Shown one piece after another: positions 4,878 through 40,235 of a stretch of 64,000 nucleotides of DNA. Origin of the DNA: Chloroflexota bacterium (GTDB taxonomy: Bacteria > Chloroflexota > UBA6077 > FW602-bin22); assembly GCA_016875715.1 (NCBI GenBank), contig VGOZ01000003.1:1-64000 (forward strand), written 5' to 3'. Both the position numbers and the translations under genes were made by a program. Under the pieces are notes generated by a model. The model ran no database searches. It was given only the letters and a program-made list of their open reading frames with translations, and was not told the DNA's origin. How positions within the stretch are numbered: the first letter of the stretch is position 1; each line of letters starts with the position of its first letter.

Positions 4878-5801
4878 ATGGGCTTCACGATCGACCTGGA
4901 GGCGGCGCTCCACTTCTCGTCGATCGACGGCTACCTCCAGCAGCAACGCCAGGTCGTCGCGTCGTTGCGTGCTTTCTACGATGCGGACGCGGCACGCATT
5001 TGGAACGCGCTGAGCCCGGTTCAGCGTGCCCGATTCGCCGGCGCGCTCGGGCGCGATGTCGCGCTGCCCGAGCGGGAGTGGAACCGCGCCTGGTGGCTTC
5101 ACGCAATCGGTGGGACACCCCGCGCGCCTTTCGTCACGGGGCTATCGCCGGAGGACGGCGCGGTCCTGTTTGCTGCCCTGTCGGCGGCACTCGACCCGGC
5201 TGTTCCACCGTCCGATCGACGCGCGGCATTCGAAGCCTGGTGGGCCGCGCTGATCGAACGGTGCCGCGCCTTGATCGCACGTTATGTCGATGAGCGCATT
5301 CAGGGCGCCCGGCGCCGCCTGCTCGACGAAGGTGTTCTCGAGGCGGACGTGGCAACGGGAACCCAGTCGCCGGGCGCGATCCGCCACGCCCGGCGCTCTC
5401 GCCGCGGCGTCGGCGATCGGCAGCGCATTCGGGCCTCCGAGCAGGCATGTCTGGACCTGCATCGTGCTCTGGATCTCCGCTTCCGCCCACTTCAGCCCGT
5501 ATGCGGCGCCTGCGTGCGGCAGACTGGCGGCTGTTGCACCATTACCGTCCCGCTGATCTGGCGTGAGAACGACTTCCGCCTGCTCGCGTTCGATACACCC
5601 GCTCCGATGGTGCCCGACCCAGCGCTCGCCGGCGCGTGCCCCTTCCTCGGCGCGAGCGGTTGCCGCCTTCCATCTGAGCGGCGACCGCACATCTGCCGTT
5701 CCTTCCTCTGCGAGAGCGCCGAGGCCGCGCTCGGCACCACTCTGGAAGGAACGCGCGGAGAGATCGAGCGACTGACGCGGGCCCGCTCCCAGCTTGCCTG
5801 A
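4878..5801 (+). CDS. YkgJ-like cysteine cluster protein
   Basis: C-terminal CGAC..TGGCC...ACPFL..SGCRL...RPHICRSFLC cysteine pattern. Confidence 0.7.
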   Translation: MGFTIDLEAALHFSSIDGYLQQQRQVVASLRAFYDADAARIWNALSPVQRARFAGALGRDVALPEREWNRAWWLHAIGGTPRAPFVTGLSPEDGAVLFAALSAALDPAVPPSDRRAAFEAWWAALIERCRALIARYVDERIQGARRRLLDEGVLEADVATGTQSPGAIRHARRSRRGVGDRQRIRASEQACLDLHRALDLRFRPLQPVCGACVRQTGGCCTITVPLIWRENDFRLLAFDTPAPMVPDPALAGACPFLGASGCRLPSERRPHICRSFLCESAEAALGTTLEGTRGEIERLTRARSQLA

Positions 5802-5804
5802 GCG

Positions 5805-6503
5805 CTATGACTTCCGCGCGATCGCCAGGACCGATACCCCGAGCGGCAGGTCGATACGCCGGAGAAGCCGGCGTTCCACGGCCAGCGCCACCCTGCCGCT
5901 ACGGCGCTCGAGCCAGGACTCGCTCGAGAGATCATTCCCGCGATAGTGGCGCCAGCGTTGGAGGACGCGGCGCAGCGCGATCGCGGGGAGCAACAGACTG
6001 TTGACGTAGCTCAGGCGCTGGGGCCAGAGGTCCGCCTCGCGGAGTTTCGCGCGCAATCCGGCAACGGTGTAGCGCCGAGCCGTTTCCACGGCTTCATCGT
6101 GAGGCCCGCGCAGCCATTCGAGCGCCGGGAGGCGCAGGATGAGGAATCCCTCCGGCCGCAGCACCCGGCGCATCTCGCGCAACGCCGCGACGTCGTCCTG
6201 CACGCGGGCGTGATAGAGGACCTCGAACGAGGTCACGAGATCGAAGGCGCCCGCGATGAAGGGCAGGGACTCCGCCTCGCCGGCAACCTGATCGGGCAAG
6301 CGCCCGCGCGCCAGACGACGTGCATCCTCGCTCGGTTCTAGGCCGACAACGGAGCCGAAGCGCGACAACAGTGCGCCGTTCCCACCCGTTCCCGAGCCAA
6401 CATCGAGGATGCGCCCGAGGGGCGGCTCGCACGCGCGGAGCACGTCGCCGACGATGAGCCGATTGCCGACGTACCACCAGTGGCGATCCTCAACCGCCCG
6501 CAT
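5805..6503 (-). CDS. Class I SAM-dependent methyltransferase
   Basis: RILDVGSGTGGNGALLSRFG motif I. Confidence 0.85.
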   Translation of the reverse strand: MRAVEDRHWWYVGNRLIVGDVLRACEPPLGRILDVGSGTGGNGALLSRFGSVVGLEPSEDARRLARGRLPDQVAGEAESLPFIAGAFDLVTSFEVLYHARVQDDVAALREMRRVLRPEGFLILRLPALEWLRGPHDEAVETARRYTVAGLRAKLREADLWPQRLSYVNSLLLPAIALRRVLQRWRHYRGNDLSSESWLERRSGRVALAVERRLLRRIDLPLGVSVLAIARKS

Positions 6504-6545
6504 ACGTTCGAGTTGCTCGCGGTTCAGGAGACGCTCGCAGAATGG

Positions 6546-39952: not shown

Positions 39953-40000
39953 TTGACAATATCGAACGTCCGTTCTACGATGATAGTAGAACAAACGTTC
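39953..40000 (+). promoter_or_regulatory. Sigma70-like promoter with two LexA-type (SOS) boxes
   Basis: TTGACA (39953-39958), 17-nt spacer, TACGAT (39976-39981); GAAC-GTCC-GTTC at 39964-39975 (in spacer) and GAAC-AAAC-GTTC at 39989-40000. Confidence 0.78.
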
Positions 40001-40016
40001 TAGTGAGGGTACGGCG

Positions 40017-40235
40017 ATGCGCACGACGCAACTGACGCTGTTTCCGGAGTCCAGGCGCCGATCGCGTGCGATGCATCCGGCTGGAGCACGCCGGCGGCAT
40101 GGGGATGTCGCCGCGCTGGAGTCACAGGCGCGTGGGGCGCGCCAGGGCGCAAATCTGCACTCGGCGTTTGTGTCCTTCTGGGCGACGCTCTCCCCTGAGC
40201 GGCGTGCCGAGTTGCGCTCCCGCCTCGCGGCGTGA
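40017..40235 (+). CDS. Small SOS-regulated protein with N-terminal QLTLF (putative beta-clamp-binding motif)
   Basis: 72-aa ORF MRTTQLTLFPESRRRSR...LHSAFVSFWATLSPERRAELRSRLAA directly downstream of the LexA-box promoter with GAGGG-type RBS. Confidence 0.7.
   Translation: MRTTQLTLFPESRRRSRAMHPAGARRRHGDVAALESQARGARQGANLHSAFVSFWATLSPERRAELRSRLAA

Follow-up and report, generated by a model that had tools for sequence, protein, structure and literature searches.

Promoter Architecture and Predicted LexA Control

Two perfect LexA boxes at a single core promoter raise the question of which product a bacterium would withhold so strictly until its DNA is damaged, and where that product would act. The case considered here is a 72-aa protein gene in a 64,000-nucleotide stretch of Chloroflexota contig VGOZ01000003.1 (the window), in which a first-pass annotation had proposed a TTGACA-N17-TACGAT promoter with one palindrome in the spacer and another just 3' of the -10 hexamer. 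The sequence agreed with that description base for base. The -35 hexamer TTGACA (39953..39958, forward strand) is a perfect consensus also present in the promoters of same-order homologues, and the -10 hexamer TACGAT (39976..39981, forward strand) follows after a 17-nt spacer. LexA operator 1 (GAACGTCCGTTC; 39964..39975, forward strand) lies within this spacer, and operator 2 (GAACAAACGTTC; 39989..40000, forward strand) covers the expected transcription start. Both operators read directly as perfect GAAC-N4-GTTC palindromes, a motif published for LexA of Bacillus and, more widely, of Gram-positive bacteria (PMC3323433).

Scored with a box matrix for which only lexA and imuA/imuB boxes served as training set, the two operators reached 19.0 and 19.3, and no background position among 246,248 taken from unselected loci scored 16 or higher. 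The host LexA regulon was sampled through pattern searches. GAACN4GTTC occurred at 79 sites genome-wide compared to 21 for the reversed control pattern; the further sites within the window (30097 and 42372) were both intragenic, in coding sequence. Perfect site pairs within 30 nt numbered only two in the host genome (G000), at the promoter of the 72-aa gene and at lexA, with none for the control pattern. Double perfect palindromes with the spacing of the 72-aa gene were present in 11 of the 31 genomes searched, the control giving zero in all of them. Such double boxes are considered real LexA targets because several of those in relatives precede lexA and four precede an Rv2578c-like radical SAM gene.

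The proposed repression presupposes a LexA of GAACN4GTTC specificity in the genome, and one is present: a LexA above the family cut-off is encoded on contig C73, and its own double-boxed promoter (TTGACT - CGAACGGGTGTTCG - ... - AGAACACACGTTCG) has the same two-box layout as that of the 72-aa gene. In the order and the class, every main lexA of determinable orientation likewise had GAACN4GTTC on its 5' side. Judged from operator sequence and position, the 72-aa gene is almost certainly under LexA control, from which we infer its induction.

Several further LexA-related loci were recorded. The host carries a second LexA-like gene (C16:33913-34515; L036), and a second LexA-like protein was likewise encoded in several genomes of the order (L246-L252). 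The Rv2578c-like radical SAM gene lies behind a perfect double LexA box at about locus position 1500 in four f9 genomes (L074, L075, L076, and L077 in G014, G015, G024, and G013, respectively), which suggests that this Chloroflexota class has a radical SAM enzyme under SOS control. In the class member G021, a double LexA box (C340:11458-11491; L072) points at an unidentified ORF.

A Small Protein With a Candidate Clamp-Binding Tail

Downstream of the double-box promoter, the 72-aa ORF with a QLTLF-type start was located exactly as claimed (40017..40235, forward strand; ATG at 40017, stop at 40233-40235), and encodes a candidate SOS-induced clamp binder. Its N-terminus is MRTTQLTLF, in which QLTLF (residues 5-9; 40029..40043, forward strand) is a candidate beta-clamp-binding pentapeptide by its conservation and by its motif class, as in DnaE; the peptide of this region is MRTTQLTLFPES. 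Of 2,204 background ORFs, two, the 72-aa ORF included, had the pattern Q-x-[STDE]-[LM]-F within their first 20 residues.

AlphaFold2 modeled residues 1-24 as a low-confidence tail, so that the segment carrying QLTLF is predicted to be disordered, followed by helices at residues 25-57 and 60-71 with block pLDDT values mostly of 84-97. The short helical C-terminal domain suspected by the first-pass annotation is accordingly predicted with high confidence as a two-helix hairpin (40089..40229, forward strand) carrying F-x-x-FWAxLSPERRAELRxR. The homologue from G011 had the same plan of a tail and two helices; the pTM of the two models was low (0.42 and 0.39) and the inter-helix angle is not reliable.

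The 72-aa protein had no significant match in Pfam, NCBIfam, PHROGs, or PADLOC. Foldseek gave no match in the PDB and only noise in BFVD, and a profile search of PDB sequences returned chance matches only. Searches of phages, plasmids, and viral contigs were negative for the gene, which therefore shows no sign of being a mobile-element gene. The family libraries and literature searched contained no description of the protein; subscription journals were mostly outside this coverage, so an earlier description is possible. To our knowledge, the protein does not correspond to any known SOS protein.

Conservation of the Motif and the Operators

Beyond the host, seven genomes of the order (G001, G002, G006, G008, G010, G011, and G012) and one of the class (G019) carry a homologue. 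The protein, in a size range of approximately 72-129 aa, is kept across four families in differing gene surroundings. The named records of these relatives are "Chloroflexi bacterium" metagenome assemblies. Protein searches gave one clear relative, in G001 from another genus of the family (MDARQMTLFDGE...FAAFWAGLSPERRAELRARVAA; 43% identical), and most of the weak matches were rejected as apparent chance matches in arginine/alanine-rich frames. Profile searches added the members in G002, G006, G008, G010, G011, and G012, with the motifs QATLF, QRSLF, QGELF, QESLF, QRSLF, and QRSLF, respectively. No copy was detected in G003, G004, G005, G007, or G009, several of which are incomplete assemblies.

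The proposal had tied the protein to joint conservation of the QxxLF motif and the LexA boxes in homologues, and members of the order keep both. All seven same-order homologues have Q-x-[STE]-L-F near the N-terminus, and all seven genes are faced by a TTGACA/TATAAT-type sigma-70 promoter with a LexA-type site that is perfect or one to two bases off. The G001 promoter reads TTGACA - CGAACGTGCGTTCT - TATTCT with the second box one base off; G002 and G008 have perfect boxes between -35 and -10 (GAACGAATGTTC, GAACATTCGTTC); and the f6 operators (G006, G010, G011, and G012) occupy the same promoter positions with one or two mismatches (e.g., AAACAGACGTTC, GAACACTTGTCC). The class member G019 retains a clamp hexapeptide, QLELPL, and no LexA site was found at its gene. 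In the motif alignment, Q and L are invariant in 11 homologues and F (or PL) is present in all members but two paralogues.

These paralogues, G000:C49:23159-23386(-) (L059) and G001:C29:45624-45842(-) (L058), share the C-terminal helical part of the protein and have QPNLPGM and QPSLPGM, respectively, in place of QxxLF. No LexA site was present at either gene.

Compatibility With DnaN and DnaE

The replicative polymerase DnaE has a Q-x-[ST]-[LM]-F motif in all nine genomes tested, such as QTSMFD in the host, QASLFD in G001, and QSSLFD in G012. The DnaN positions compared were those presumed to line the peptide pocket: R152, L155, R176, P242, N320, Y323, M362, P363, and M364 (E. coli numbering) were identical in nine of nine genomes and L177 was kept in eight of nine, and T172, S346, H175, and R365 are substituted relative to E. 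coli, mostly consistently. Going by these residues, the pocket is largely conserved and fits a QLTLF-type peptide. Published dissection of the motif describes a conserved Gln, a tolerant position 2, and a terminal Phe/Leu (PMC11139829), and the variation among the homologues matches these rules. A pentapeptide alone being no proof, conservation of motif and pocket together make it very likely that the 72-aa protein binds the DnaN clamp. Additional DnaN-like clamps were observed in G008 (two in all; L268, C66) and in G019 (three in all; L267 and L269, C3 and C75).

Relationship to Translesion Polymerases and Alternative Roles

An alternative role is that of a mutasome adaptor, in which the tail would sit on the clamp and the hairpin would recruit ImuB, DnaE2, or ImuA for translesion synthesis. 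The host does encode an imuA-imuB-dnaE2 operon (G000:C42:1494-7199; L217) with a one-base-off LexA box upstream that is kept in G001 (L218; GAACAAATGATC / GAACATTTGATC), clear boxes lie 5' of the mutasome genes in G002 and G019, and in G008 the small gene is located approximately 2 kb from a DnaE2 fragment. However, the host operon is separate, the small gene being outside imuAB-dnaE2 in G000, G001, G011, and G019, and ImuB has a clamp-like motif of its own (QLRLL in G000 and QGELF in G011). Furthermore, the small gene is carried by G006 and G010 (93-94% complete) with no IMS (Y-family) or DnaE2 match, and by G008 with no IMS match and the DnaE2 fragment only. Its retention in at least two relatives in which ImuB, DinB, or DnaE2 was not found indicates that the small protein is probably not merely a mutasome subunit, an absence argument weakened by gaps in the metagenome-assembled genomes, and favors a ubiquitous target, for example DnaN or DnaE. 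An adaptor role is thus regarded as unlikely.

The near-LexA sites of the imuA-imuB-dnaE2 operons in G000 and G001 end in GATC instead of GTTC, a deviation common to both genera. The G008 neighborhood (C119; L216) was rejected as a mutasome operon, the DnaE2 match (5400-6461) being a truncated fragment that overlaps a convergent RecA/ImuA-like gene with a perfect LexA box at 6516; it may be what remains of a mutasome locus, or else an assembly join.

Two other functions were weighed against the predicted fold. The motif of Hda sits in its disordered N-terminus (PMC11139829), and a similar placement in the 72-aa protein could indicate a clamp-bound initiation regulator that inactivates DnaA after damage. 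This is improbable for a protein that lacks an AAA+ domain and any Pfam match and consists, beyond its tail, of a helical hairpin of approximately 50 residues only. An SOS division inhibitor comparable to YneA, SidA, or SulA, with an accidental likeness to QLTLF, would agree with the small size, SOS control, and fast evolution that are typical of that class. It is nevertheless similarly improbable, as reading the 72 residues by eye revealed no membrane-spanning hydrophobic stretch of the kind expected for membrane-type inhibitors such as YneA and SidA, and what is conserved at the N-terminus is the clamp motif, retained even in distant members; modulation of division, listed among the options in the first-pass annotation, found no support in the analysis.

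Neighboring genes were named by reading their translations. In f1, the small gene is flanked on one side by a divergent Gfo/Idh-type gene and on the other by a gene for a Thr-rich lipoprotein; in f6, it adjoins one gene for a zinc alcohol dehydrogenase and another of PAC2-like type, with an alcohol dehydrogenase gene nearby in G011; and in G002 and G008, it has other surroundings. The Gfo/Idh-type gene, on the opposite strand, starts 43 nt from operator 1 and is kept in G001, yet an untranslated ORF with operators serving this oxidoreductase gene is scarcely credible, given a protein conserved in four families with different gene contexts and a gene that, in the order, always follows a sigma-70 promoter directed toward it and carrying a LexA-type site. 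As the neighbors differ between families, the 72-aa gene looks like an independent transcription unit.

Proposed Role at the Replication Fork

Taken from the genomic evidence, the 72-aa protein looks like an undescribed DNA-damage factor working at the replication fork. It is likely to be the product of a stand-alone SOS gene and to dock on DnaN via QLTLF. In an undamaged cell, LexA dimers on the two operators overlapping the core promoter would keep the gene tightly off, and LexA cleavage following DNA damage would allow the protein to be made. The QLTLF of the flexible N-terminal tail would then dock in the hydrophobic DnaN pocket that DnaE (QTSMF) uses, and the C-terminal two-helix hairpin could provide a second contact, either through self-association (dimerization) or with a partner. 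On clamps at damaged forks, the small protein would compete with or displace DnaE, by which synthesis might be slowed or the clamp freed for repair. Whether such competition, or a modulation of the fork, is the main effect is finely balanced, with doubt slightly outweighing confidence. A more tentative suggestion is a dedicated SOS replication brake, made of a DnaE-type clamp motif on a helical hairpin, that would be present only upon damage and evict DnaE.

Among known SOS factors with an effect on the clamp, most are polymerases or polymerase subunits. A replication brake, if true, would constitute a checkpoint exerted on the replisome and not via division or polymerase replacement, and would operate in bacteria without translesion polymerases. 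A small, stand-alone, LexA-controlled candidate clamp ligand, kept in several uncultured Chloroflexota families and also in genomes that gave no translesion polymerase match, points to direct SOS control of the replisome, and would offer a naturally occurring case of the clamp blocking sought in antibiotic design.

Comparison With Known Systems

The operator sequence and core-promoter position of the 72-aa gene are shared with LexA-regulated SOS genes of the Bacillus/Mycobacterium type (motif: PMC3323433), whereas its product matches no family library used. The Q-x-[ST]-L-F pentapeptide is shared with the beta-clamp binders DnaE, DinB, UmuC, ImuB, Hda, and MutL, and its position in an N-terminal tail with Hda (PMC11139829), but in contrast to these proteins the 72-aa protein has no polymerase, AAA+, or repair domain and only a two-helix hairpin. 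ImuB, an SOS-controlled, clamp-binding hub (PMC10421592), is also encoded in the host genome and has SOS control and clamp binding, the latter a candidate property of the 72-aa protein, in common with it. As a large Y-family polymerase without activity, ImuB differs from the 72-aa protein, which is unrelated to it in sequence, encoded outside its operon, and kept where ImuB was not found. The fold of UmuD is that of a LexA-like peptidase, from which the predicted all-helical hairpin with its canonical QxxLF tail differs. UmuD is nonetheless listed as a clamp partner (PMC11139829), and UmuD/UmuD' are small SOS proteins for which clamp binding has been reported, a property proposed here for the 72-aa candidate.
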